Source: Amycolatopsis sp. NBRC 101858
GTDB lineage: Bacteria > Actinomycetota > Actinomycetes > Mycobacteriales > Pseudonocardiaceae
NCBI RefSeq assembly: GCF_030269325.1
Contig: NZ_BSTD01000002.1
Span: forward strand, 1,178,001-1,242,000
Length of the DNA stretch: 64,000 nucleotides
Direction: 5' to 3'
Made by a program: the position numbers and the translations under genes. The notes beneath the pieces were generated by a model. That model saw only the letters and a program-made list of their open reading frames with translations, made no database searches and was not told where the DNA came from. This document shows positions 3,384 to 36,045 of this stretch, in pieces. Numbering within the stretch: position 1 is the stretch's first letter; the number at the start of each line of letters is the position of its first letter.

Positions 3384-3387
<4 letters not shown>
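1..3387 (-). CDS. NRPS, terminal module C-A-T-TE (3' end outside window)
   Basis: This is the last module of the assembly line. It adds residue 8 and should release the peptide. From the ATG at 3387 it reads: a short basic helical N-terminus that looks like a docking segment, a condensation domain ([10 protein letters not shown], intact HHIACDGW near 2870), an adenylation domain ([11 protein letters not shown] near 1470), a carrier domain ([10 protein letters not shown] near 340), and the start of a thioesterase ([16 protein letters not shown] near 110-150). The gene leaves the window before the thioesterase active-site serine. The ten-residue A-domain code, read by eye, is DLTKVGEVAK. DLTK is the Asp/Asn hallmark, and glutamate at the seventh position matches known Asn codes rather than Asp codes, so the substrate is Asn-like. 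The ATG overlaps the upstream NRPS stop as ATGA, so translation is probably coupled. Family assignment is certain; the substrate is inferred. Confidence 0.95.
607..619. repeat. 13-bp palindrome GTCCACWGTGGAC (also at 9507, 17298, 23539, 27956)
   Basis: Five perfect copies occur, at 607-619, 9507-9519, 17298-17310, 23539-23551 and 27956-27968. One-mismatch copies occur at 4749, 19893 and 46038. All five perfect copies encode Ser-Thr-Val-Asp in the same frame on the minus strand, using Thr codons ACA or ACT that are otherwise rare here. Confidence 0.7.
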
Positions 3388-23381
<19,994 letters not shown>

Positions 23382-23421: not shown

Positions 23422-23628
23422 TCAGCGCATCGAGGCGACGAGGCTCGCCGGGCGCAGGTCGGTCCAGTGCGTCTCGACGTACTCCAGGCACGCGGCGCGG
23501 GTGTCCTCGCCGTGCACGGTGCGCCAGCCGGCCGGGACGTCCACAGTGGACGGCCAGAGCGAGTGCTGGTTCTCGGCGTTGACCAGGACCAGGAAGGTGG
23601 CGTTCTCGTCTTCGAAGGGGTTGGTCAT
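23422..23628 (-). CDS. mbtH: MbtH-like protein
   Basis: A 68-residue member of the MbtH family, small proteins that bind NRPS adenylation domains and are often needed for their folding or activity. It starts [12 protein letters not shown] and carries the family signature [10 protein letters not shown] followed by PAGW and a C-terminal DLRP. Length and motifs are typical. It lies 40 bases upstream of the large NRPS gene. Its ATG at 23628 overlaps the stop of the MFS gene as ATGA, which fixes the start. It probably serves the A domains of both NRPS proteins. Confidence 0.97.
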
Positions 23629-25148
23629 GACTTCTTCTCCTCTGTGAGGGCGGCCCGGCCGAGTGCCGGGGTGGCGACGAGCAGGGCGAGCGCGACGAGC
23701 GCGACCGCGGCGTGGGCGAACATGGTGAGCGGGACGCCGATCGCCTCGGTGAGCACGCCGATCAGCAGGTTGCCGACCGGGGTGGCGGCGAGGGTGAACA
23801 GCGCGAGGATCGACATGACGCGCCCGCGCATCTCGGGGGTCGCCCACCGCTGGGCGAGGCTGACGAGCACGAGCGCGGTGAGCCCGGCGACCAGGCCGAG
23901 GGTGAAGAAGGCGGCGACGCCGACGGCGAGGTTCCCGCTGGCCAGCAGCGCGAGGCAGCCGGCCTGGGCGGCGAGGCCCGCGGTGGCGAGCCGTCCGGCT
24001 TTCCCGCGGGGCGGCCACTTGACCGAGACGACGAAGGCGAGGGAGGCGCCGAGCGTCATGGCGGTGAGCAGCCAGCCGGCGCCGTGGGTGCCGCCGAGGA
24101 GGACGAGACCGAGGTTGATCGGGCCGGCCCCGCTGAGCTCGAGGAGGCCGGTGACGATCATGGCGGTCCGCAGGGCGGGCCGTCGTGCGACGTACCGGCA
24201 GCCTTCGCCGATCTCCTTGCCGAGCTGCTTGACCTTGACGCGTTCCCGGGGTTCGTTGCTGGTCAGCGTCTTGGTGTTGCCGGCGGCGAGGGCGGAGATC
24301 CCGAAGCTGACGCCGTTGACGACGGCGACGGTGACGAGCCCCCCGAGCCCGGCCAGCCAAGACCCGAGCGCCCCACCGGCGGCTTGCCCGCCCCGCACGG
24401 CGGCGAGGTAGACGGCGTTGCCGCGCACGAGGTGTTCGGGCGGGAGCAGGTTCGGGCGCAGGGCATCGGAGGCGGGGATGAAGAAGGCACTGGCCACGGC
24501 CATGACGACGATGAGCCCGGCGAGGAGAGGAAGCTGCGGCCCGACCACGAGGACGGCGGCGGCCCCGGCGAGCATGGCCCCGGCGCGGACGAGGTCGGTG
24601 GTGATGAGGACGCGCCTGGGTCCGGTGCGGTCGGCGACGGCGCCGCCGACGAGGAGGGTGAGGACTTTGGGGAGGGAACCGAGGGCGAGGACGAGGCCGG
24701 CGAGGGCCGGTCCGGCGGTGCCGACGAGGGTGACGGAGAGGGCGATGAGCCAGACCGCGTCGCCGAAGGAGGACAGGCCCATGGCCAGGACGAGGCCGAG
24801 GAAGGGAGCAGGGAGGGCTTTGCCTGCGGTGGGGACGGGCTCGGCAGCGGCGGCCGGCTCGGCCACCACGGTGGCGCGATTCGCGGCAGCGATGCCCAAC
24901 GCCCCCGTGACCCCGGCCGGCCCAGGCGCCGGGTGCGGCTCGGCTGCTGGCGCGGTGGTGGCGGGCTCGGCCGCGCCCGGCTTGGCCGGTGCGGTGGTGC
25001 GCTTGGCCGCAGCAATGCCCGGCGCCCCGGCCCGCGCAGGCGCCAGGTGCGGCCCGGCTGCCGCCGGGGTTCGCGAACCGGTCTCCGCCAAACGCGGCCC
25101 GGTCGGCGGGTCGAGTTCCGCCGCGCGGGGCTCCTCGACCGCCGTCAT
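23625..25148 (-). CDS. MFS transporter, likely peptide exporter
   Basis: A 507-residue protein of the major facilitator superfamily, EntS/MFS_3-like, probably exporting the NRPS product. From about residue 115 it shows many hydrophobic segments and the loop motif [12 protein letters not shown] between helices 2 and 3, then a second half with [16 protein letters not shown]. The first ~110 residues are an Ala/Pro/Glu-rich, probably disordered cytoplasmic extension with an internal duplication (GIAAAKRTT and GIAAANRAT). That extension is unusual for the family. The start at ATG 25148 is chosen because it overlaps the upstream stop (ATGA). An in-frame start 45 bases further upstream would overlap the neighbour more deeply. 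It also overlaps mbtH downstream. Export of this particular peptide is inference from operon position. Confidence 0.9.
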
Positions 25149-26398
25149 GACAGCACCTGCTCGCGGACTCGGTCCGGCGTCCCCGGGAACCACACGTCCT
25201 CGGGCGTCAGCGCGTCGGCGCGGTACTGGCCCAGCGCGCTGAGCAGCATCCGCAGCTCCAGCGCCAAGGCCTCAACGAACCGGAGCAGCCCGGAAGCCGG
25301 GTCCGTGTCCACCGCCAGCAGCGCCGCGCGGCCGAGGCCTGCCGCGCGGGCTCCCAATGCCAGGACCTTTGCCACTCGCGTGCCCTCCCACATGCGGCCC
25401 GAGGCCAGCAAGCACCCCGCCGGCACACCGATGCGGGACAAGCACTCCGCCAGCGGCAGGCCGACCGAAGCGAACGACAGCGGGGCCCAGCCCGACCCGC
25501 CCTCCGCGCCGTCGACCGTCACCGCCGAGGCTCCCGCCGCCCACGCCACCGATGCCGCGAACGCCACATCGCGGCCCGGCGGGAGCTTCACCCACACCCC
25601 GGCGCGCGGGAAGTTGTTGCGCATCAAGCGGATCTGCTGACGGAGGATCTCGTCGGTGAACGTCCCCGGCGAACTGCTCCGCAACACCGAAGAGCCCAGC
25701 GACAGATCGACCGCGTACTGAGAAGACAGCGAAGCGGCGACAGCAGGCGAGACCAGCGTCATCCCGCCGAGCCCCGGCTTCGCGCCCTGCCCCACCTTCA
25801 GCTCGAACGCCAACCTCCCGGACTCCAGCAGCGATGCCGCCGACGGGTCCGAGTACACGAGGTTCCACACCTCCGCGTCCGCGTCCTCGGTGCTCTGCTG
25901 GACGACCACCCCGCCGAGCCCGTCGGGCACCGCGTCCGCGTACGCCCGCATCCGCTCCAGCAGCGTCCCGGCCGACGCTCCGCCCGCACGACCGTGGCCG
26001 TGCACCGGGACGACGTTCTCGCCGATCACCATCGGGATCCCGAGCCGCGCCGCCTGCGCCGAAGCCGCCGCGCCCAGCCCGGCACCGGCGACCTGCGTCG
26101 AGCCGAATGCCGACAGGTACAGCGGCAGCGAAGACTCGAACCCGCCGATCGACGTCGACAGGGAGACGTCGCCGTACAACGGCTCGCGGCCCAGCTCGAT
26201 CAGCTTCTCCAGCCGCCGCGGTACGAACACCGGCGGGACCAGCCGCGCCTCGTCAAGAACGTCCGACGAAAAAGAAGGAGCGTCGCCGAACAACGATGTC
26301 CCGTAAGAAGAAGCGTCAGGGAACACCGCCGCGGCGCCGGAACGGGCCCGCTCCCGGACCTGGTCGGCGGGGAACCCGGAGGCGTGCAGCGCGGTCAC
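25145..26398 (-). CDS. Glutamate-synthase-type FMN-binding protein
   Basis: A 417-residue homologue of the FMN-binding synthase domain of the glutamate synthase large subunit. Two diagnostic blocks are visible: [13 protein letters not shown] near residue 200 and [14 protein letters not shown] near residue 297, the TIM-barrel flavin/substrate motifs. The amidotransferase domain is absent. The cysteine cluster that normally holds the 3Fe-4S centre after the flavin motif is replaced by [11 protein letters not shown], so this is a stand-alone flavoprotein without the iron-sulfur centre. It starts at GTG 26398 (GTGA overlap with the preceding gene) and ends overlapping the MFS start. In this operon it probably supplies or tailors an amino acid precursor, perhaps by imine/amine redox chemistry on a glutamate- or methylaspartate-related compound. 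The exact reaction cannot be read from sequence. Confidence 0.85.
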
Positions 26399-27378
26399 GG
26401 CGAGACCACCCCCGGCAGCTTCGGGAACGCCGTCGCCTGCCACACCGCGTCCAGCCCGGCCACGTACCGGGTGAACCGCTGCACGCCCAGGCCGAACCCG
26501 GCACTCGCCGGGATCCCGGCCCGGACCAGGTCGAGGTACCACGCGTACTTCGCCGGGTTCTCGCCGGTCTCCCGCATCCGCGTGACGATCCGGCCGTAGT
26601 CGTGCTCACGCTCGCTGCCACTGCACAGCTCGCCGTAGCCCTCCGGCGCGATCAGGTCGAAGTTGCGCAGGACGCCGGCAACAGAAGTGCTTTCGCGGTC
26701 GTAGAACCCGCGCGACCCCTTCGGGTAGTCGACGAGGAAGAACGGCCGCGCGTGCTTCTCCGACAGGATCGCTTCGCCCGCCCAGTCGATCTCGGCGTCC
26801 GCGCTCTGCGGGTGCCCGAGCTCGCGCAGCGTCTCGACGGCGGTGGCGTGCGGCAGCCGGCCGAACGCGCCGCCGAGCAGGTCGGTGAACGCGCCCGAGT
26901 CGCGGCCGAGCGCCTCCAGTACGTCGCCCGCGTCCTCGACGACGCGGCGCACCACGTGCGCCACCAGGTCCTGCAGCAGGTCGAGCACGTCGTCGCGGGA
27001 CGCCCCGGCGACCTCGACGTCGAGCTGGTGGAACTCGGCCAGGTGCCGGCTCGTGTTCGCCGTCTCCAGGGGCTCCAGCCGCACGTTCGGCGCGACGTAG
27101 AAGATCTTCGAGAAGCCGAGCAGCGACGCCTGCTTGTACAGGATCGCGCTGGTCATCAGCTTGTAGCGGTGGCCGTAGAAGTCGACGTCGACCTGCTTCG
27201 CGCCGCGGCCGCCGGGGTCGGTGACCGGGCCGATCACCGGCGGCAGCAGCTCGGTGAAGCCGCGGGCGCCGAGGAACGCGCGCGCCTCGGTGAGCATCTT
27301 GTGCTGGAGGCCCAGCACGTGCCGCGTGGTCTCCGAGGTCAGGTGCGTACGCGGGTCCGGCGGATCGGTGTACTCCAT
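26395..27378 (-). CDS. Class II aaRS-like protein lacking anticodon domain (asparagine synthetase-related)
   Basis: A 327-residue stand-alone catalytic core of the AspRS/AsnRS type. Motif 2 reads PNVRLEPLETANTSRHLAEF with the following acidic DVEVA. Motif 3 reads GFGLGVQRF. There is no N-terminal OB-fold anticodon-binding domain, so charging of a normal tRNA is unlikely. Archaeal proteins of this architecture (AS-AR) are ATP-dependent asparagine synthetases that form an aspartyl-adenylate. Placed directly between glutamate mutase and the NRPS, whose last A domain reads an Asn-type code, the parsimonious role is amidation of 3-methylaspartate (or Asp) to the asparagine analogue. Alternatives are aminoacyl transfer to a carrier protein or simple amino acid activation. 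ATG start at 27378, 31 bases after the previous gene; the stop overlaps the next gene as GTGA. Confidence 0.85.
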   Translation of the reverse strand: MEYTDPPDPRTHLTSETTRHVLGLQHKMLTEARAFLGARGFTELLPPVIGPVTDPGGRGAKQVDVDFYGHRYKLMTSAILYKQASLLGFSKIFYVAPNVRLEPLETANTSRHLAEFHQLDVEVAGASRDDVLDLLQDLVAHVVRRVVEDAGDVLEALGRDSGAFTDLLGGAFGRLPHATAVETLRELGHPQSADAEIDWAGEAILSEKHARPFFLVDYPKGSRGFYDRESTSVAGVLRNFDLIAPEGYGELCSGSEREHDYGRIVTRMRETGENPAKYAWYLDLVRAGIPASAGFGLGVQRFTRYVAGLDAVWQATAFPKLPGVVSP

Positions 27379-27409
27379 GGCGTTTTCACTCCCAGCTGGT
27401 CGGGACGGA

Positions 27410-28660
27410 TCAGGACAGGACCGGGTCGAGCCTTCGGCGGTGGTAGGACAGGTCGGCGAGCAGCCGGGTCGCGCTGACCCGGTCGTGACCGCGGCGGCCG
27501 CCCAGCGCGGGCGGCAGCGGCATCCGGCCGGTGTGCCACCACTGCAGGCGGCCTTCGTCGTCGAGCACGCACCGGGTTTCGCCGCCGTTGTCGGGGTGCA
27601 GGCAGTACGGGACGTCGAGCAGGCCGCGTTCGAACGCCGCCGGCAGCGCCTCGGCCAGCGTCGGGGCGAGCGAGCGCACCTCGTCGACGAGCCGCCGCGC
27701 CTGCGCGTACACCTCGGTGTCCTCTGATGTGGGGGCGGCCGGAGCCGGCTGGTCCAGCGCGGTGGCGTGGGCCAGCCGCAGGGCCTCGACGTTCTCTTCG
27801 ACGGTGGGGATCCGGTGTGCTTCCGCCGTGGTCTTGACGATCAGCCGCTCGGTGCCGGTGCGCACGGCCAGCCGGACGCTCTCGGCGACCAGCTCCCGGG
27901 CCCCGGCCGCGGACTCCGGGAACAGGCCCATGTACGTGTAGAGCACGATATGATAGTCCACAGTGGACAGTTCCTCGGCGCAGAGCCGCCGCATCGCCCA
28001 CAGCGCTTCGGCGTCCTGCTCCGGGCTGGTCTGCTGCGCGTAGCTGGCCGATACGCTGCGCACGCCGTGCTCGACGAAGAACAGGCACTCGAGCACCGAC
28101 AGCGCGACGAGCAGGCCCGGCGGGCACAGCTGCCCGAGCATGCAGCCGCCGAAGCTCTCCAGGTGGCACTCGACGGCCTGCCCGGCCAGCAGCGACGCCG
28201 AGCGCGACCACGACTTCGCCGCCGTCCGCAGCGGCACGCTGCTGTAGGGCAGGCAGTAGGAGACCGGCCCGCCCTCGGAGGCGTCGAGCCCGGCTTCGAG
28301 CATCGCGGCGAAGATGTCCTCCGGCTGCGCCGACCCGTGCCGCACCTGGACCGGGAAGCGCGGGCCGTACAGGCCGTCCACCAGCTCGGCGGTGACGGCC
28401 GGGCCCAGCGCCACCAGCGGGTAGCCGTTGAGCGGGACGCCGGAGGCGATCGACATGGCGGCGAGGTCGTGCTGCCCGGTGCGGGTGTAGCTGTCCAGGG
28501 TCACGGTGCCGACGGCCGGCACGCCCGCCTCGGCGACCGCGCGCAGCCCGCGGCGCATCGTGGCGGGGTCGGAGAACCCCATGCGCGGCTGGACGAGCAG
28601 CGTCCGGCGGCGCCGGTGCTCGGCCACGAAGCCGCTGAACACCGACCGGGCAGCGGTCAC
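27410..28660 (-). CDS. glmE: Glutamate (methylaspartate) mutase, large subunit E
   Basis: A 416-residue catalytic subunit of the adenosylcobalamin-dependent glutamate mutase, which interconverts L-glutamate and (2S,3S)-3-methylaspartate. Recognised by overall resemblance to the GlmE/MutE family, including the N-terminal LLVQPRMGFSD, the barrel segments DSYTR, ASGVPLNGYPLV and RHGSAQPEDIF, and the block ECHLESFGGCMLGQL. It is somewhat shorter than the roughly 480-residue clostridial enzyme, as I recall is usual for secondary-metabolism versions. Its partner glmS is immediately upstream and the two overlap as GTGA (start GTG 28660). In lipopeptide and vicenistatin clusters such pairs supply 3-methylaspartate for secondary metabolism, so the same role is inferred here. 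Confidence 0.92.
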   Translation of the reverse strand: MTAARSVFSGFVAEHRRRRTLLVQPRMGFSDPATMRRGLRAVAEAGVPAVGTVTLDSYTRTGQHDLAAMSIASGVPLNGYPLVALGPAVTAELVDGLYGPRFPVQVRHGSAQPEDIFAAMLEAGLDASEGGPVSYCLPYSSVPLRTAAKSWSRSASLLAGQAVECHLESFGGCMLGQLCPPGLLVALSVLECLFFVEHGVRSVSASYAQQTSPEQDAEALWAMRRLCAEELSTVDYHIVLYTYMGLFPESAAGARELVAESVRLAVRTGTERLIVKTTAEAHRIPTVEENVEALRLAHATALDQPAPAAPTSEDTEVYAQARRLVDEVRSLAPTLAEALPAAFERGLLDVPYCLHPDNGGETRCVLDDEGRLQWWHTGRMPLPPALGGRRGHDRVSATRLLADLSYHRRRLDPVLS

Positions 28661-29142
28661 CGCAAGGTCCGGACGTTCGCCGCGACGAACTCGCGGAACG
28701 ACTCGATCGCCTGGCCGGAGTCACCGGCGCCGACGTGGAACACCGCGTCGTAGCCCAGTGCCAGCAGCTCGGTCTCCAGCCCGGCGTTGGCGTCGCCCTG
28801 GACGCCGAGCTTGCCGCCGATGACGGCGGGCAGGCCGGCCAGCTCGGCGTCGGCGCGCAGGGCGGAGATCACCCGGGCGCCGTCGACGTGGCCGTGGCCG
28901 TTGATGGTGCTGATCACCAGGCAGTCCGGCCGCTCGGCGCGGCAGGCGGCCAGCAGCCGCTCGACCGGGACGCAGGCGCCGAGGTTGACCACCTCGTGCC
29001 CCATCTCCTCCATGATCAGCTGGAGGGCGACGAGGTTCCACATGTGCGAGTCGGACTGGACGCTGGACAGGACGAACTTGAGCGGGGACCCGGCGGCCAC
29101 GCCGGGCCCGTCGGGGGTCTGCTCGATCTGGAACGTGGTCAT
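28657..29142 (-). CDS. glmS: Glutamate mutase, small B12-binding subunit
   Basis: A 161-residue cobalamin-binding subunit of glutamate mutase (not glucosamine synthase, which shares the symbol). The base-off/His-on motif is SDSHMWN at about residues 30-36, with the axial histidine present. The canonical DxHxxG glycine is Asn here, a substitution I believe is common in secondary-metabolite versions. Later blocks STINGHGH and VIGGKLG fit the Rossmann-like cobalamin fold. The start is ATG 29142 because a GGGAG ribosome site lies about eight bases upstream. An in-frame extension to 29349 would add low-complexity sequence unlike the family. It is the first gene of the NRPS operon, and its promoter must lie in the divergent gap with lanM. 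Confidence 0.92.
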   Translation of the reverse strand: MTTFQIEQTPDGPGVAAGSPLKFVLSSVQSDSHMWNLVALQLIMEEMGHEVVNLGACVPVERLLAACRAERPDCLVISTINGHGHVDGARVISALRADAELAGLPAVIGGKLGVQGDANAGLETELLALGYDAVFHVGAGDSGQAIESFREFVAANVRTLR

Positions 29143-29552
29143 CGTGCGTCGCTCCCTGTGTGTTCGGGGAACGTCCGCGGGGCGAGCCGCGAACTTCTCA
29201 CGACGAATCGTCATCGGCCGGCGGCCCGCGCACATGGGTGCGGCGGCCCCGCATTCCGGTGCCGCTCCCGGCACCGGAGTCCGCCTCGCGCGCGGGCGAC
29301 GCGGCCGCGCGCGCGACCGCGGAGACAGGGGGCCGGGGGTGCCCCGCACGGGGGATCGAGCCGGTGCGCGCCCTCGTCAACCCCTGTCGGGCCCGCCCAC
29401 CGAACGGACCAACCGCCACGTCCATTCAGGGCAAGCACGTAGTCCGCGACCAGGCGTTTCGCCGGCGGCGCCCCCATGAACCCCTAATACGCCCCCATGC
29501 CGCGCGGGAATGCGGGCGTAGCACCCCCATGTAACCGGCGTCACCCGCTGCC
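29143..29552. promoter_or_regulatory. Divergent intergenic region between NRPS operon and lanM
   Basis: About 410 bases separate glmS (minus) from lanM (plus), and both operons must be driven from here. No convincing gene is present; the short open frames on the minus strand have no family features. Close to lanM there are three exact copies of CCCCCATG at 29471, 29492 and 29524, spaced 21 and 32 bases, which is about two and three helical turns. TAATAC at 29485-29490 could be a -10 element. I see no clear -35 element. Confidence 0.6.
29471..29531 (+). repeat. Three phased direct repeats CCCCCATG upstream of lanM
   Basis: Exact octamers start at 29471, 29492 and 29524. Spacings of 21 and 32 bases put all three on the same face of the helix, as seen for multimeric activator sites. 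The last copy ends 21 bases before the lanM start codon. A candidate regulator, the LAL protein at 33154-36045, is encoded just downstream of the lan genes. Confidence 0.5.
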
Positions 29553-32411
29553 ATGCTCGATCCCGTGATTCCCCCGCAGCCGAACCCGGCGACCACGACG
29601 CTCCCGCCCACCTGGTGGGCGGCGGCGCTGACCACGCAGGAGCGGCGTCCGGACGGCGTCCGCCCCGCGTGGGTGGACTTCGCCGAGACGGCGCTCACGT
29701 CGGCCCGGCCCGCCGCTCCGGCGACCGGTCCGGACTGGCGCACCGCGTTCGCCGCGGTGTTCCGCCCCTTCACCGACGCGGCCCGCGCCGCGATCGCCGG
29801 CGCCGCAGCGGCTTCGCCCGCCGTCGACGCCACCGCGATCGCCGGCGGGTGCGCCGCGGGGCTGGGTCACCAGCTCGCCGGGCTCGCCGCCCGCACGCTG
29901 GTGCTGGAACTCGGCCGGGCCCGCCGCGCGGAGCTCCTCACGGGGGAAACGCCGGAAGCGCGGTTCGCCGGCTTCGTCCGGCAGACCGGCACCCCGGCCG
30001 GGCTCACCGACCTGCTGCACCGCTACCCCGTGCTCGCCCGGCTCGCCGCGCAGGCTTCGCTGCACGCGATCGAGTCGGTCACCGAACTGCTCGACCGCTT
30101 CACCGCCGACCGTGCCGACCTCGCCGCGTTCATCGGCGCCGAGCCCGGCACGCTGGTCGAGATCAGCGGCGGCACCGGGGACGCCCACCAGCGCGGCCGC
30201 TCGGTCCGCGAGCTGCGGTTCGCCGGCGGCGCGCGCGTCATCTACAAGCCCCGCCCGCTCGACCTGCACGCGGCGTTCACCGGCCTGGTGGAGTGGCTCA
30301 ACCCGCGCGTGCCCGGCCTCGAGCTGCGCACGGTCGACGTCCTGGTGCGCCCCGGCTACGGCTGGCTGCGCTTCGTCGAGCACCGGCCGTGCGCCGACCT
30401 CACCGAGGTGGACCGGTTCTACCGCCGCCAGGGCGTGCTGCTCGCCCTGCTGCACGCCCTCGACGGCACCGACGTGCACTTCGAGAACATCATCGCCGCC
30501 GGCGACCAGCCCGTGCTGATCGACATCGAAACGCTCTTCCAGCCGGTGCTGCCGGCCGAAGAGACCGAGGTCGACCCCGCTTCCGAGCTGCTCGCGCGGT
30601 CGGTGCACCGGACGCTGCTGCTGCCGCAGATGATCGTCGGCGAGCACGGCGCGGTCGACATCTCCGGCCTCGGCGGCGGCCGCGCGGCGGGCCCGGCGCT
30701 GACCCGCGTCGACTGGCTCGACGCCGGCACCGACCGGATGCGGCTGACCCGGGTGCCCGGCGGGGTCGGCACCGGCGTCAACCGGCCGACCCTCGGCGGC
30801 GTCGACGTCGAACCGGCCGAGCACGGGGCCGCGCTGCTGGCCGGGTTCCGCGCCGGCTACGACGCGATCGCCGCCGGTGCGGCGGAGTTCACCGCCCTGC
30901 TGGACCGCTGCGCCGGCGCGGGGATCCGCGTCCTGGTGCGCCCGACCAGCTTCTACACGCGGCTGCTCGACGAGACCACGCACCCGTCGCTGCTGGCCGG
31001 CGCCGACGCCCGCGACGACGCGTTCGGGCTGCTGCACGACGACAGCACCGACGACGTCCGCCGCGGCCTCGTCGCCGCCGAGCTCACCGACCTGTGGGCG
31101 GGCGACGTCCCGATGTTCATCGGCCGGCCCGGATCCGCGGACCTCTGGGACGCCGACGGGAACCGCCTCCCCGGGCTCCTGGGCGAACCGCCGCTGACGA
31201 CGGTCCGCGCGAAGGTCGCCGGGATGACCACGATCGACCGCCGCGACCAGGAGTGGCTGATCTCCGCGGCGCTGGCGACCCGCCCGGCGGCCGAGACGCA
31301 CGCGGGCACCGGGGTCACCGACCGGGTCCTGCCGAGCAAGAGCCCCGAGCCCGCGCACCTGCTTTCGGCGGCGTGCGGGGTCGCCGACGCGATCATCGCC
31401 CGGGCGTCCTCGGCCGGCGGCCGGGTCAACTGGGTGGGCCTGGAGCTCGTCGACGAGAAATACTGGACCGTGCTGCCGATGGGCGCCGGGCTCGGCGAGG
31501 GCTACACCGGCGTCGCGCTGTTCCTCGCGCAGCTGGCCGAGCTGACCGGCATCGACCGCTACCGCGACCTGGCCGGGAAGGCGCTTTCCGGCCTGCCGTG
31601 GCTGGTGTCGGCGCTGGAGGCCGACCCGGAGCTCGCCGCCGCGGCCGGGCCCGGCGGGCTGCTGGGGCTCGGCGGCGTCGCCTACGCCACGGCCCGGCTC
31701 GCCCGGCTGCTCGACCGCCCGGACCTGCTCGACCTGACCGCTCGCACGGTCGCGGTCATGCCCGCCCCGACGCCCGAGACGTCGCCGCGCTACACCACCG
31801 GCCTGGCCGGCGGCCTGGTCGCGCTGCGCTCGGTGGCCACCCAGACCGGGCTCGCCGAAGCCACGCTGCTGGCCGCCGCCTACGCGGCCGAGCTCGCCGT
31901 CCGCTCCCTCGACCCCGACCTCGCCGACCCCGGGTTCGCGCACGGCGCGGCCGGCGTCGACTGGGCCCTCGCCGGCTACCCGCGCGAGACGGCGACCCTG
32001 CCGCCCGCGAAGGCCGCCACCGGGCACGGATGGTGTTCCGGCCTGGCCGGGCAGGTGCTGGCCTACGCCGGCCAGCCCGCGGTGCTCGGCGGCCTCGACG
32101 AGCAGGTCGCGGCCCTCGCCGCCCAGGACCCGCTGCGCGACCTGAGCCTCTGCCACGGCGAAACCGGCATCACCGACGTTCTCGGCTTCCTCGCCGACAC
32201 CGGGCACCTCGGCGCCGCCGCCGCGGTCGCCACCCGCACCGGGCAGCTGCTCACCGCCGTCGAACAGGACGGCGCGCGCTGCGGCACCCCCGACGGCGTC
32301 CCGTCCCCCGGCCTGCTGACCGGCCTGGCCGGCATCGGCTACGGCCTGCTGCGCCTGGGCTTCGGCCCCCGCGTCCCGTCCGCCCTGCTCCTGCAACCCC
32401 CGACCCGCTGA
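29553..32411 (+). CDS. lanM: Class II lanthipeptide synthetase LanM
   Basis: A 952-residue bifunctional enzyme that phosphorylates and dehydrates Ser/Thr in a precursor peptide and normally adds Cys thiols to the resulting dehydro residues. The N-terminal two thirds is the kinase-like dehydratase domain: IYKPRPLDLH with Lys232, TDVHFENII around residue 306, and VLIDIETLFQP around residue 324. The C-terminal third is the LanC-like cyclase with repeated glycine-rich GEGYTG and GLAGG helices. Its zinc ligands are intact, Cys in GHGWCSG (about residue 829) and Cys-His in LCHGETG (about residue 867). Length is normal and no inactivating change is visible. Three precursor-like genes follow directly. 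All lack Cys, so thioether formation within these peptides is impossible. No LanT transporter/protease gene is in the window. Confidence 0.95.
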   Translation: MLDPVIPPQPNPATTTLPPTWWAAALTTQERRPDGVRPAWVDFAETALTSARPAAPATGPDWRTAFAAVFRPFTDAARAAIAGAAAASPAVDATAIAGGCAAGLGHQLAGLAARTLVLELGRARRAELLTGETPEARFAGFVRQTGTPAGLTDLLHRYPVLARLAAQASLHAIESVTELLDRFTADRADLAAFIGAEPGTLVEISGGTGDAHQRGRSVRELRFAGGARVIYKPRPLDLHAAFTGLVEWLNPRVPGLELRTVDVLVRPGYGWLRFVEHRPCADLTEVDRFYRRQGVLLALLHALDGTDVHFENIIAAGDQPVLIDIETLFQPVLPAEETEVDPASELLARSVHRTLLLPQMIVGEHGAVDISGLGGGRAAGPALTRVDWLDAGTDRMRLTRVPGGVGTGVNRPTLGGVDVEPAEHGAALLAGFRAGYDAIAAGAAEFTALLDRCAGAGIRVLVRPTSFYTRLLDETTHPSLLAGADARDDAFGLLHDDSTDDVRRGLVAAELTDLWAGDVPMFIGRPGSADLWDADGNRLPGLLGEPPLTTVRAKVAGMTTIDRRDQEWLISAALATRPAAETHAGTGVTDRVLPSKSPEPAHLLSAACGVADAIIARASSAGGRVNWVGLELVDEKYWTVLPMGAGLGEGYTGVALFLAQLAELTGIDRYRDLAGKALSGLPWLVSALEADPELAAAAGPGGLLGLGGVAYATARLARLLDRPDLLDLTARTVAVMPAPTPETSPRYTTGLAGGLVALRSVATQTGLAEATLLAAAYAAELAVRSLDPDLADPGFAHGAAGVDWALAGYPRETATLPPAKAATGHGWCSGLAGQVLAYAGQPAVLGGLDEQVAALAAQDPLRDLSLCHGETGITDVLGFLADTGHLGAAAAVATRTGQLLTAVEQDGARCGTPDGVPSPGLLTGLAGIGYGLLRLGFGPRVPSALLLQPPTR

Positions 32412-32463
32412 GCCCCTGATCCGCACCCGTCCCCACCGTCCCGCCCTGAGGAGAGAACGACCG

Positions 32464-32643
32464 ATGCCCGAAACCACCGCCGAGACCGTCGAAGCCACCG
32501 TCGGTGCCCTGGTGCTCCCCCGCGCGAACCGCCGCGGTGCCCGCAACCAGGCGCTGGCCGGCACCCGGCCCCGGCTCTCCGGGATGACCCTCGAGACGCT
32601 CGGTGGCCCCACCGTCGTCACCAACGGCACCTTCGCCCTCTGA
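32464..32643 (+). CDS. Putative LanM precursor peptide 1 (Cys-free)
   Basis: A 59-residue peptide beginning MPETTAETVEATVG, with a GAGGAGA ribosome site at 32449. It aligns with the two following peptides over an LP-x-x-x-R-x-GARN-x-AL-x-G-x-x-x-R-L-S block: here LPRANRRGARNQALAG. The C-terminal part, SGMTLETLGGPTVVTNGTFAL without its first residues, carries Thr at many positions and no Cys or Lys. Its location 52 bases after lanM, in the same orientation, makes it a likely substrate. The leader/core boundary is not obvious, because the family has no double-glycine (GG/GA) site with a clear core after it. No function is known to me. Confidence 0.75.
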   Translation: MPETTAETVEATVGALVLPRANRRGARNQALAGTRPRLSGMTLETLGGPTVVTNGTFAL

Positions 32644-32688
32644 CGTCCGTCCCCTGCCCCGATTGCGACAGAAAGCGGAGAACACGCC

Positions 32689-32871
32689 ATGAGCGAGTAC
32701 GACTTCACCGGCTCGGACAACCCCGTCGGCGACCCGACCCTCCCGGTGCCGACCCGGACCGGCGCCCGCAACCGCGCCCTCGCCGGCCGGACCGCGCGGC
32801 TGAGCCACAACGGCGCCGACACCCTGGACATCACCCCGGTCTTCACCGTCAGCATCGCGTTCCCCCAGTAG
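32689..32871 (+). CDS. Putative LanM precursor peptide 2 (Cys-free)
   Basis: A 60-residue peptide with a GGAG ribosome site about eleven bases upstream. N-terminal half MSEYDFTGSDNPVGDPTLP resembles peptide 3 closely and peptide 1 weakly. The shared block is RTGARNRALAGRTARLS, followed by the variable tail DTLDITPVFTVSIAFPQ. Six Ser/Thr residues follow GARN and could be dehydrated. There is no Cys. It lies 45 bases after peptide 1, so all three are probably on one transcript with lanM. Confidence 0.75.
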   Translation: MSEYDFTGSDNPVGDPTLPVPTRTGARNRALAGRTARLSHNGADTLDITPVFTVSIAFPQ

Positions 32872-32912
32872 CCGTTCCCGCCCCCAGCACTACCGAGAGT
32901 GGAGCCACCCGC

Positions 32913-33089
32913 ATGACCCAGCACGACTTCGCCGGCCCGGACAACCCGATCGGCGACTTGACCCTCCCCCGGACCTCCCGCACCGGCGCCCGCAACCACG
33001 CGCTGTCCGGCAAAACGGCGCGCGTGAGCCAGAACTCGCTGACCACGATGGACATCACGGTCGTCACGGGCGGCTTCACCGAACAGTGA
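32913..33089 (+). CDS. Putative LanM precursor peptide 3 (Cys-free)
   Basis: A 58-residue paralogue with GGAG about eight bases upstream. N-terminus MTQHDFAGPDNPIGDLTLP, shared block RTGARNHALSGKTARVS, and tail MDITVVTGGFTEQ. Nine Ser/Thr residues follow GARN; there is one Lys and no Cys. N-terminal halves of peptides 2 and 3 are near-identical while the tails differ, the pattern expected of a conserved recognition leader and diversified core. It ends 64 bases before the regulator gene. Confidence 0.75.
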   Translation: MTQHDFAGPDNPIGDLTLPRTSRTGARNHALSGKTARVSQNSLTTMDITVVTGGFTEQ

Positions 33090-33140
33090 GACACCGGGGC
33101 GTCGGTAATTCGACCTACGTCCGGATGTGGCCAGTCCGGT

Positions 33141-33153: not shown

Positions 33154-36045
33154 ATGGGCATCCGGTCGACGCGTCTCATCGGACGCGACAGGGAGCTCGG
33201 CGCACTGTCCCAGGCTCTGGAGAAGGCCCGCACCGACCACGGTGGGGCCTTCTTCCTTGTCGGCGAAGGCGGGATCGGGAAGTCCCGGCTCGCCGCCGAC
33301 GTCGCCTCGCGGGCCCTGGCGACCGGGCTCCCGGTGCTACGCGGACGAGCCAGCTCGATCGGCCCGATGGTGCCGTTCCGGCCACTGGCCGAAGCCCTGC
33401 TTTCGCACTTCCGCGGCGGTCTCCCGCCCGCCGCGCCCGAGCTCGACCCGCTCGTGCCGGTGCTCGCCCGGCTCGTGCCCGACTGGTACCGCGGCGACCG
33501 GCCGCACGACAACGGGAACCTGCTCGTGCTGGCCGAAGCCGTGTTCCGGCTGCTGTCGGTGGCCGGTCGCGAAGGCGGCTGCCTGATCGTGCTGGAGGAC
33601 CTGCACAACGCCGACGCCGAGACCCTGTTCATCGTCGAGTACCTCGTCGACAACCTGGCGTCGAGCCGGGTCATGCTGATCGGCACCCTGCGCGGCGAGC
33701 CGGGCGAGGCGCTGCGGCTGGCGACCGCGGCGGCGCAGCGCTCGTCCAGCCACACCTTCGAACTGGCCCGGCTCGACGCCGAGCGCACCCGCGAGTTCGC
33801 GGCCGCCTGCCTGGAGACCGAGCCGGCCGCGGTCCCGGCCGCCGTCGCGAACCTGTTGTGGCAGAACAGCGAGGGCGTCCCGTTCGTCGTCGAGGAGCTG
33901 CTGCACGGCATGCTCGGCGACGGCCTGCTCGTCGGTGGGGCGGGCGGCTGGCAGGTCGTCGGCGAGCTGCAGGCCCGCGTGCCGGAGGCGCTGATCAGCA
34001 GCATCGCCACCCGCGTCGACGCACTCGGCTCGGACGGCGAGACGCTGCTTTCGGTGGCCGCCGTGCTGGGCCGGCGGTTCCCGCTGTCGGTCGTGCAGGC
34101 GGTGACCGACATGGACGACCGCATGCTGCACAACCACATCAGCGCGAGCGTCGCGGCGCACCTGGTCACCACCGACGAGACCACGCCCGGCTGGTACGCC
34201 TTCCGCCACCCGCTGACCGCCGAGGCCCTGCTGGCCCGGCTCGTGCCGTCGACGAAGGCGAACCTGGCGCGCCGGGCCGCCGACGCCGTCGAACTCCTGC
34301 ACCCCGGCCTGCCGGGCGAGCTGTGCGCGCTGGCCGCGGCGCTGCGGCTGACGGCGATGGACCACCCCGGCGCCGGCCGGCTGTTCGCCGAGGCCGGCCG
34401 CCGCGCGCTCGACGGCGGCGCGGCCGACACCGCGGTGACCATGCTGACCCGCGCCGTCGAGCTGCTGGCCGCGGCCGGCCCGGACGACCGCGCCGACGCC
34501 CTGGAGACCCTGCTGCACGCGCTCGGGCAGACCGGCCAGTTCGACCGGGCCGTCGAGTTCTCCGCCCGCTTCGCCGAGATCGGCCGTCTGGAACGGGCGG
34601 TCGACCTGCACATCCAGCTGGCGTGGGCGGCCTACATCGGCGGGCGGCACGACGAGTGCCTCAACCAGATCGAGCAGGCCCGCGCGCCGCTCGGCGGCGA
34701 GATCACCGAAGAGCAGAAGGCGGGGCTGGACGCCGTCGAAGCGACGCTGTGGCTGGACATCCCGGGCCCGGCGCACACCGAGCGGGCCCGGAAGCTGGCC
34801 GAGCAGGCGTGGGAGGTCGCCGAGCGCGCCGGAGTGCCGTTCGTGTCGTGCCAGGCGCTGCAGGTCCTCGGCATGGTGGCGCTGGAGACCGACCTCGCCG
34901 AAGCCGAGCGCTACCTGCAGCTGGCGCGGCGGCTGGCCGAACAGCACCAGCTGACGCACCTGCGCACCCAGGTGCTCGTGCGGCTCGGCGGGCACCGGAT
35001 GCTGGCCGAGGGCGACGTCCGCACGTTCGACCTGGCCCGCGCGGAGGCCCAGCGCACCGGCGCGATCACGCTGACCTGCGCGGTCGACGCGAGCCGCGCG
35101 GTGCACGCGGCGATGCGCGGCGAGTTCGCGCAGGCCGACACGATCCTCGACGAGAACCTCGCGGTGCTCGGCCGGCTCGGCCTGGTCGCGCTGCTGCAGT
35201 ACACGCACATGACGCGCGCGATGGTGGCCGCCCACCAGGCGGACCGGCCGCGGATGGACCGCGCGCTCGAGGACTTCCGCACGGCGGGCGGCACCGGAGC
35301 ACAGGAGCTCGTCCTCAGCGTCGGGCTGGCCCAGGTGTTCTGTTCCCTGCTCGAGGAGGACGCCGAACGCGCCCGCCGCGAGCTGGACCAGGTGCTGGCC
35401 CTGGAGGAGCGGCAGCCGAGTCGCTTCCACCTGGCCGGCCAGCACGGCCTGCGGCTGCTGGTCGAGGCGCTGGACGGGACGGAGCCGGAGGTGACCCGGC
35501 CGCGGGCGGCGGTGAGCGGGATGCGCTGGAACCGCCAGTTCGTCCTGCTCGGCGACGCGGTCCGCCACGGCCGCGCGGGAGAACCGGAGCAGGCCGACGC
35601 GGCGGTGGCGGCGGCGATCGAGGCGGCGGCCCCGTTCCCGGTGAGCAGGCACCTGGGGCTGCGGATGGTGGCGGAGTCCGCCTCGGCCGACGGCTGGGGC
35701 GACCCGGTGACGTGGCTGAAAGAGGCCGAGGAGTACTTCCACCAGGCGGAGGTGACGGCGGTCGCGAGCGCGTGCCGCGGCCTGCTGCGCAAGATCGGCG
35801 CCCCGGTCGGCCAGCGCCGCACGGGCTCGGACCGCCTCCCGGCCACCTTGCGCTCGGCCGGGGTGACGGTGCGCGAGTACGAGGTGCTGCAGCTGCTGGC
35901 GGACAACATGGGCAACAAGGACATCGCCCGCCGGCTGCACATTTCGCCGCGCACGGTGGAGAAGCACGTGGCGAGCTTGATGGCGAAGTCGAACCTGCAG
36001 AACCGGGGCGAGCTGACGGAGTACGCGCGGAACACACCCCACTAG
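33154..36045 (+). CDS. LAL-type LuxR-family transcriptional regulator
   Basis: A 963-residue large ATP-binding regulator. The N-terminus carries a P-loop, GEGGIGKSR, near residue 35 and a Walker B-like block LIVLEDLHNADAET near residue 150, forming an AAA/STAND ATPase. The middle is long helical TPR-like sequence. The C-terminal ~65 residues are a LuxR helix-turn-helix (VREYEVLQLLADNMGNKDIA, then RRLHISPRTVEKHV). Such proteins activate secondary-metabolite operons in actinomycetes. Its position right after the lanM/precursor genes suggests it controls them, perhaps through the CCCCCATG repeats, but it could also act on the NRPS operon. Start 33154 is chosen from the -10 element just upstream. 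Confidence 0.93.
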   Translation: MGIRSTRLIGRDRELGALSQALEKARTDHGGAFFLVGEGGIGKSRLAADVASRALATGLPVLRGRASSIGPMVPFRPLAEALLSHFRGGLPPAAPELDPLVPVLARLVPDWYRGDRPHDNGNLLVLAEAVFRLLSVAGREGGCLIVLEDLHNADAETLFIVEYLVDNLASSRVMLIGTLRGEPGEALRLATAAAQRSSSHTFELARLDAERTREFAAACLETEPAAVPAAVANLLWQNSEGVPFVVEELLHGMLGDGLLVGGAGGWQVVGELQARVPEALISSIATRVDALGSDGETLLSVAAVLGRRFPLSVVQAVTDMDDRMLHNHISASVAAHLVTTDETTPGWYAFRHPLTAEALLARLVPSTKANLARRAADAVELLHPGLPGELCALAAALRLTAMDHPGAGRLFAEAGRRALDGGAADTAVTMLTRAVELLAAAGPDDRADALETLLHALGQTGQFDRAVEFSARFAEIGRLERAVDLHIQLAWAAYIGGRHDECLNQIEQARAPLGGEITEEQKAGLDAVEATLWLDIPGPAHTERARKLAEQAWEVAERAGVPFVSCQALQVLGMVALETDLAEAERYLQLARRLAEQHQLTHLRTQVLVRLGGHRMLAEGDVRTFDLARAEAQRTGAITLTCAVDASRAVHAAMRGEFAQADTILDENLAVLGRLGLVALLQYTHMTRAMVAAHQADRPRMDRALEDFRTAGGTGAQELVLSVGLAQVFCSLLEEDAERARRELDQVLALEERQPSRFHLAGQHGLRLLVEALDGTEPEVTRPRAAVSGMRWNRQFVLLGDAVRHGRAGEPEQADAAVAAAIEAAAPFPVSRHLGLRMVAESASADGWGDPVTWLKEAEEYFHQAEVTAVASACRGLLRKIGAPVGQRRTGSDRLPATLRSAGVTVREYEVLQLLADNMGNKDIARRLHISPRTVEKHVASLMAKSNLQNRGELTEYARNTPH

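Follow-up and report, generated by a model that had tools for sequence, protein, structure and literature searches.

The stretch of DNA considered here, hereafter the window, comprises 64,000 nucleotides of contig NZ_BSTD01000002.1 from the 11.2 Mb genome of the actinobacterium Amycolatopsis sp. NBRC 101858. It carries a gene for a class II lanthipeptide synthetase-type enzyme (LanM), three short peptide genes, and a gene for a LAL-type LuxR regulator, and the locus is one instance of a conserved three-gene cassette, namely, lanM, one to three short peptide genes, and the regulator gene. An initial reading from the letters alone (the sequence-only reading) had described a full-length LanM followed by three 58–60-residue peptides that lack Cys and share an LP...R.GARN.AL.G...R[LV]S block, a description that gene calls, domain matches, and the sequence bear out. 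The features are as follows.

29553..32411, + strand: lanM, class II lanthipeptide synthetase-type enzyme, 952 amino acids (TIGR03897 630 bits, cut-off 304; PF13575 383 bits; PF05147 86 bits)
30024..31118, + strand: dehydratase (DUF4135) domain, residues 158–522 (PF13575 match; D210, H212, K232, D307, H309, N312, D324, E326, R459, and T465 kept)
31479..32411, + strand: LanC-like domain, zinc ligands and acid His kept
32034–32036, 32151–32153, and 32154–32156, + strand: LanC zinc ligands C828, C867, and H868
31941–31943, + strand: LanC acid His, H797
31494–31496, 31788–31790, and 32037–32039, + strand: replaced LanC residues G648 (canonical Tyr), R746 (canonical Asp), and S829 (canonical His)
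32464..32643, + strand: peptide 1, 59 amino acids, Cys-free; common block 32515–32580; GC content at third codon positions (GC3) 0.90
32689..32871, + strand: peptide 2, 60 amino acids, Cys-free; common block 32740–32805; FTVS in the tail; GC3 1.00
32913..33089, + strand: peptide 3, 58 amino acids, Cys-free; common block 32964–33029; TVVT in the tail; GC3 0.95
33154..36045, + strand: LAL-type regulator (AAA_16 and C-terminal GerE/LuxR), 963 amino acids (PF13191 76 bits, PF00196 54 bits); alternative GTG start at 33127

Gaps of 52, 45, and 41 bases lie in front of peptides 1, 2, and 3, and the regulator gene comes after peptide 3. NCBIfam and Pfam recognize both a DUF4135 dehydratase and a LanC domain in the full-length LanM, whose solved relatives include LicM2 (6st5) and CylM (5dzt). 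A promoter and terminator scan of the cassette, confined to sigma-70-type consensus, gave no match. Among the window neighbors scanned with Pfam and NCBIfam there is a major facilitator superfamily transporter (23628–25193), no YcaO, and no LanT-type exporter or protease, other loci having been read for the latter by eye only. A plasmid collection yielded a single match of 139 query bases.

The linkage of these genes extends well beyond this genome. Across 80 Amycolatopsis genomes, a LanM match was found in 53 (E up to 0.001) and a regulator match in 46 (E up to 1e-100). Adjacency was counted over 63 LanM rows, from which further pieces of an already counted gene had been dropped and in which one pair was merged: at 42% identity or above, the regulator lies within 1.5 kb in 45 of 48 rows, and below 42% in 0 of 15. 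Of the three exceptions, that of G039 is a gene split over two contigs with the regulator on the second, that of G023 is a partial gene lying where its contig ends, and that of G066 is a fragment of just 55 codons. Viewed from the regulator, 45 of 58 rows adjoin a LanM row; the G039 case is among the 13 that remain. In a family sample, LanM matches occurred in 49 of 120 genomes and provided 30 usable loci; in 25 the regulator follows LanM at a distance of up to ~1.3 kb (on the other strand at L116), and at L122–L125 no LAL gene was seen nearby. With E limited to 1e-80, a class-wide sample of 197 genomes had matches in four, the own genome counted, and added one further cassette (L195). Among loci from named genera (Amycolatopsis, Kutzneria, Actinocrispum, Actinophytocola, and Longispora), the regulator stands beside LanM in 17 of 18, the exception, L213, being a LanM of 34% identity without LAL. 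Nine further Amycolatopsis loci (L130–L138) comprise one with an inverted regulator (L130) and eight distant LanMs without one. Genes outside the trio vary between clades.

Several side observations concern cassette relatives. The own genome has a distant second LanM (L135, G000:C7:512538-515381; 32% identity) without a LAL neighbor. In Amycolatopsis clade D (L082, L083, and L130) the LAL gene is on the opposite strand, and at L083 a 572-amino-acid gene beyond it resembles, by eye, a terpene cyclase or prenyltransferase-type repeat protein. Six loci (L139, L140, L143, L144, L147, and L149) carry a LAL paralogue of 48–51% identity without LanM or a peptide call, mostly beside genes that by eye are AONS-like and 3-hydroxyacyl-CoA-dehydrogenase-like.

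A LanM tree of 81 rows (quick IQ-TREE, SH-aLRT) gathers the LAL-type LanMs into a single group of 69 rows with SH-aLRT support of 100. Within this group the branching order is L120, whose peptide has a TIGR03898 leader and Cys; L195, with a Cys-free peptide; a Cys-tailed group of nine (seven with a CC tail, L108 with one Cys, and L122 without a peptide call); and then a clade of 58 that includes the window LanM. Peptides were read for 56 of the 58, L047 and L117 being included by LanM only, and 55 are Cys-free; the L101 peptide has one Cys, in its leader part. The core Cys was probably lost before this 58-row group, judging from the tree and the peptides. In the residue comparisons below, 11 canonical LanMs without LAL serve as the reference set, and, following the tree, L122 is counted with the Cys-tailed group and L120 outside the Cys-free set.

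The three peptides are genuine genes under purifying selection in clade A, the Amycolatopsis clade to which the window LanM belongs, since peptides 1, 2, and 3 are kept in 10, 7, and 10 of its 10 loci (window locus counted) with ratios of nonsynonymous to synonymous substitution of 0.32 (10 sequences), 0.64 (7), and 0.33 (10). The distal core residues kept in every clade-A orthologue are S39, T42, T45, T50, T53, and T56 of peptide 1; S39, T45, T49, and T53 of peptide 2; and S39, S42, T44, T45, T49, and T52 of peptide 3. T34 in peptide 1, T35 and S55 in peptide 2, and T35 and T56 in peptide 3 are not kept in all of them. Read directly, the three window tails have no common Lys, His, or Tyr as a possible cross-linking nucleophile. 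A strict pattern for the shared block occurs three times in the own genome, each time at the window locus; a broad DNA pattern was discarded as non-discriminating because it matches in 80 of 80 genomes.

That no intramolecular lanthionine can form in the three peptides, as the sequence-only reading had held, follows from their lack of Cys. Taken by itself this absence is unsurprising: Cys accounts for 0.52% of 13,905 residues in the large window proteins, so a random 59-mer would lack it about three times in four, and the argument that three Cys-free peptides are improbable in their own right was rejected. It gains weight from the position of the peptides behind a LanM and from the same pattern in the wider family. 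A profile of 22 peptides run against a protein database (E up to 0.01) returned 96 relatives, which contain 14 Cys in 6252 residues against ~32 expected at the window rate. Cys is absent from 84 of these 96, as from 55 of the 56 clade peptides; Cys-tailed relatives also exist. Among the 12 Cys-bearing database relatives, the tail holds Cys in P0020, P0045, P0050, and P0058 (P0045 has an earlier one too), and in the others Cys lies within or before the block region, just after the block, or in an extended start. The relatives come from Saccharothrix, Actinosynnema, Streptomyces, and Kitasatospora, among other named sources, and go under “hypothetical protein,” “uncharacterized protein,” or “putative membrane protein” there; P0001–P0008 are relatives of peptide 2. 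A set of Streptomyces and Kitasatospora relatives (P0069, P0091, P0095, P0096, P0098, P0099, and P0101) has an HPAGQIS motif and a conserved DLPWTTM tail; these are Cys-free in the tail and of the same kind as the peptide of the L195 cassette.

Alignment indicates that the GARN.AL block is part of a shared N-terminal, leader-like region; its use as a core signature was rejected, since relatives with Cys tails keep an equivalent block. The pattern across the cassettes is an N-terminal motif like xP[AVI]G[ED]xxL, a GxRxxAL.G block, and then a short tail, frequently with T-T-V-S or a close variant as its last residues. The corresponding site in Cys-tailed relatives reads TTCC, and a C-terminal T-V-S/V is shared between genera. 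The basal member L120 combines a TIGR03898 leader (25.5 bits, cut-off 23.5) with Cys, and the motif of the window peptides resembles it by eye and in alignment, a similar PAG motif persisting. Peptides 1–3 themselves gave no Pfam match and no NCBIfam match at E up to 1. A scan of ten peptides with E allowed up to 10 placed only L120 and L196 above a curated cut-off, both for TIGR03898.

The dehydratase half of the window LanM has the residues for phosphorylation and elimination listed above, which were located by alignment with CylM, R459 and T465 being placed by the spacing of R506 and T512. All 58 clade LanMs have D210, H212, D307, H309, N312, D324, E326, and R459; position 232 is Lys in 50, Arg in 7, and Gln in 1, and position 465 is Thr in 51 and Ser in 7. 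Of the CylM equivalents, K274, N352, D364, and E366 presumably take part in this chemistry. Roles for CylM D252, H254, D347, H349, R506, and T512 have been published (eLife 2015, PMC4550811).

The LanC half, compared with its relatives, keeps its zinc site and acid His and is changed at other cyclase residues; its active site is not complete. The zinc ligands are retained in 58 of 58 clade LanMs, as the sequence-only reading had noted for this one, the first of them being C828 rather than the residue 829 given there. Its further description of the cyclase as intact must be withdrawn, given changes at 648, 746, and 829 relative to the canonical set. Position 648 is Tyr in 11/11 canonical LanMs and 0/58 of the clade, position 746 is Asp in 11/11 and 5/58, and the first zinc Cys is followed by His in 11/11 and 1/58. 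The residue at this last site is His, Lys, or Asn in LanMs (PNAS 2023, PMC9934072), where it stabilizes the enolate (CylM K876) that the acid His (CylM H835) protonates (PMC9934072). H797 was matched to CylM H835 through the HG motif in an alignment with LicM2. The acid His is present in 11/11 canonical and 17/58 clade LanMs, and is replaced by Arg, Trp, Phe, or Asp in the remaining 41. Counted by Amycolatopsis clade it is kept in 10/10 of A, 2/20 of B, 0/8 of C, and 0/3 of D, that is, throughout only in A. The enolate-stabilizing position 829 is Ser in clade A and Asp or Glu in 15/20 of clade B. Elsewhere, far from the cassette of its genome, an isolated LanC-like fragment (G066:C1:3860040-3860204) within a 241-amino-acid frame is 67% identical to LanM residues 792–848.

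Building on the gene structure, conservation, residue pattern, linkage, and phylogeny described above, we infer, with a modest preference over its competitors, that the LanM of this conserved cassette dehydrates Cys-free peptides to mainly linear dehydrobutyrine (Dhb) and dehydroalanine (Dha) peptides, perhaps tied to the LAL regulator. The enzyme would bind the N-terminal part of each peptide, through the xP[AVI]G[ED]xxL-like motif and then the GxRxxAL.G block, and would phosphorylate and eliminate tail Thr and Ser residues to give Dhb and Dha. Because peptides 1–3 have no Cys, no thioether ring would close within them, and the product would be mainly linear. The LanC half, with several other catalytic residues lost, probably keeps its zinc for fold or substrate binding. 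The peptide may then act with the LAL regulator or be made under its control, a connection suggested by the constant LAL neighborhood and by there being no dedicated exporter or protease seen.

A number of observations weigh against this interpretation. That peptides 1–3 are LanM substrates is suggested by their position and leader-like motif; among the scanned cassette peptides, only that of L120 scores in a known family, and peptides 1–3 match none. The cyclase of Cys-tailed members is similarly altered (acid His in 3/9), so loss of cyclase residues does not track loss of Cys. Clade A keeps His797, which may leave a chemical route for adding the thiol of a trans Cys peptide, mycothiol, or cysteine. 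The 58-row group has SH-aLRT support of only 87% by a quick method, and L195 may represent a second loss of Cys, or the Cys-tailed group a regain. The layout varies as well: L127 has its LAL gene ~1.8 kb upstream of LanM and not downstream, and L122, inside the tree group, shows neither LAL nor peptide. Finally, a Cys-containing precursor elsewhere, which the sequence-only reading had named as a potential true substrate, was not found in the own genome by profile searches that scored about 80 candidates per genome, and in four other clade-A genomes (G017, G025, G061, and G069) a GERNxAL peptide with two tail Cys does occur, with another LAL gene as its neighbor and no LanM. The strongest challenge comes from external or trans thiol addition, for which the His797 kept in clade A leaves room, and from a multi-substrate system. 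The alternatives are not exclusive of one another, and their probabilities overlap.

The best placed alternative, which we regard as tentative and which is compatible with a linear cassette product, is a multi-substrate LanM as in prochlorosin biosynthesis, acting on cassette and unlinked substrates, some with Cys, to give linear and cyclic products. It draws on peptides of the family that lie apart from any cassette: a cassette-profile search of the 80 genomes gave ten remote matches at E<1e-3, nine of them in clade-A hosts and the tenth (G018, a non-clade-A host) a 23-residue match within a 346-amino-acid frame. A second profile, partly built from remote matches, gave 15 at E<1e-6; these fall in eight of the ten clade-A hosts and in none of the other 70 genomes. 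Four remote peptides bear Cys, and clade A is the only Amycolatopsis clade to keep the acid His throughout. However, those Cys peptides adjoin their own LAL gene and may serve another role, whereas the other remote copies read, which have neither LanM nor LAL nearby, are Cys-free and Thr-rich in the tail, and one (G017:C54) has no evident start codon. Furthermore, profile searches found no unlinked family peptide in the own genome or in G019, and in the own genome only the three window peptides, none with Cys; these searches scored 80 of 299 and 82 of 362 first-look candidates in the own genome (about 80 per genome), so misses are possible.

Less probable, and in our view unlikely, is a LanCL-like scheme in which LanM dehydrates and the LanC domain adds an external thiol (mycothiol or cysteine), or the Cys of another peptide, to Dha or Dhb. 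Human LanCL1, with zinc and the equivalent His, adds glutathione to Dhb peptides (PMC9934072), and zinc ligands in 58/58 LanMs, His797 in all ten of clade A, and the Cys-bearing relatives unlinked to LanM in four clade-A genomes would all suit such a role. Yet the enolate-stabilizing position is Ser in clade A and mostly acidic in clade B, and in LanCL1 an Asp there was roughly as costly as a Lys, whose effect was some 200-fold (PMC9934072). In 41/58 LanMs the acid His is gone, and the profile searches, at about 80 scored candidates per genome, returned no Cys peptide in the own genome. Returning to the linear dehydrated product, a bolder extension, which we consider rather unlikely as it stands, would make the Dhb peptide the intracellular cognate ligand of the LAL protein, in a signaling module spread over several actinobacterial families, with scattered peptide genes in some genomes feeding the same LanM.

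The genes upstream of lanM invite a different assignment. A 6665-amino-acid nonribosomal peptide synthetase (NRPS) occupies 3384–23381 on the − strand, with seven adenylation-domain and seven peptidyl carrier protein motifs; Pfam, run on two halves, marks 8 AMP-binding (the split may cut one), 7 PP-binding, and 6 condensation stretches. It starts with an adenylation domain and shows no thioesterase match. Between it and lanM, at 25145–29349 on the − strand, genes for a glutamate mutase pair (B12-binding S chain and MutE), for an AsnRS-like asparagine synthetase, and for an FMN glutamate-synthase-like protein run toward the NRPS, which suggests a 3-methylaspartate-type building block for it. 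That the cassette belongs to this cluster, its modified peptide or LAL gene serving the NRPS pathway, is improbable: GlmS and MutE genes adjoin lanM in all ten clade-A loci, window counted, but are absent from 13/13 clade B and C loci examined (~19.5 kb each), where the trio persists with other neighbors, and the cassette was rejected as a general part of the NRPS cluster on that account. Least probable of all is that the peptides are small regulators of the LAL protein while LanM acts on something else, for although peptide and LAL gene occur together without LanM at L141, L142, L145, and L146, neither a LAL gene nor a LanM lies close to other remote peptides, unlinked family peptides at E<1e-6 occur only in hosts of a clade-A LanM, and the basal L120 carries a recognized class II leader.

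Within the open-licence PMC literature we recognized no description of a LanM–Cys-free peptide–LAL cassette, and the earlier statement that no described class has this signature nonetheless goes too far, in view of Cys-less LanM precursors (PMC7268733) and carnazolamide (PMC10676384). The cassette shares its enzyme architecture and dehydratase residues with class II lanthipeptide systems, and L120 has their mersacidin/lichenicidin leader (TIGR03898), whereas here the core is Cys-free, LanC residues are altered, no LanT was seen near the locus, and the LAL partner is constant. The dehydrazole carnazolamide contains dehydroamino acids and no lanthionine, and the DUF4135 enzyme that makes it has a different type of cyclase (CcaM, LanMbC; PMC10676384); dehydroamino acids without lanthionine rings are common to both, as a prediction in our case, and the window differs in its retained zinc ligands and in showing no YcaO among scanned neighbors. 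Cyanotins and prochlorosins, the latter made by ProcM, exemplify genome-scattered LanM substrates, and some cyanotins (PMC7268733) and some ProcM substrates (PMC11251773) lack Cys; their leaders are of the Nif11 family (PMC10783134), whereas peptides 1–3 gave no Nif11 or NHLP-type match (NCBIfam, E up to 1). Walker 2020 (PMC7268733) mentions LanM-associated Cys-free precursors in clusters with both LanM and LanKC, left out there with reference to Zhang 2015; these too sit beside an actinobacterial LanM and, by that description, are set apart by LanKC. CA_C0082, an Agr quorum-sensing effector (PMC10301443), is another LanM relative tied to regulation, a tie that is conjectural for the window, and lacks the zinc ligands and dehydratase residues kept here. 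LanCL1 (PMC9934072) has zinc and acid His in common with the window LanM, making intermolecular thiol addition a conceivable use of the LanC domain, although the window enzyme is missing the enolate-stabilizing residue.

By design, this cassette escapes surveys in which a precursor must have Cys (criteria in PMC11251773, exclusion in PMC7268733). If its LanM is active, the cassette would represent a deep natural lineage in which evolution has parted the two halves of the synthetase, with dehydration constrained, ring closure relaxed, and zinc kept, and it would allow one to test directly what function the LanC zinc site has when no Cys is present. It would furthermore provide dehydratases that possibly make linear Dhb peptides, and it would point to a so far unstudied connection of dehydrated peptides with LAL regulators.

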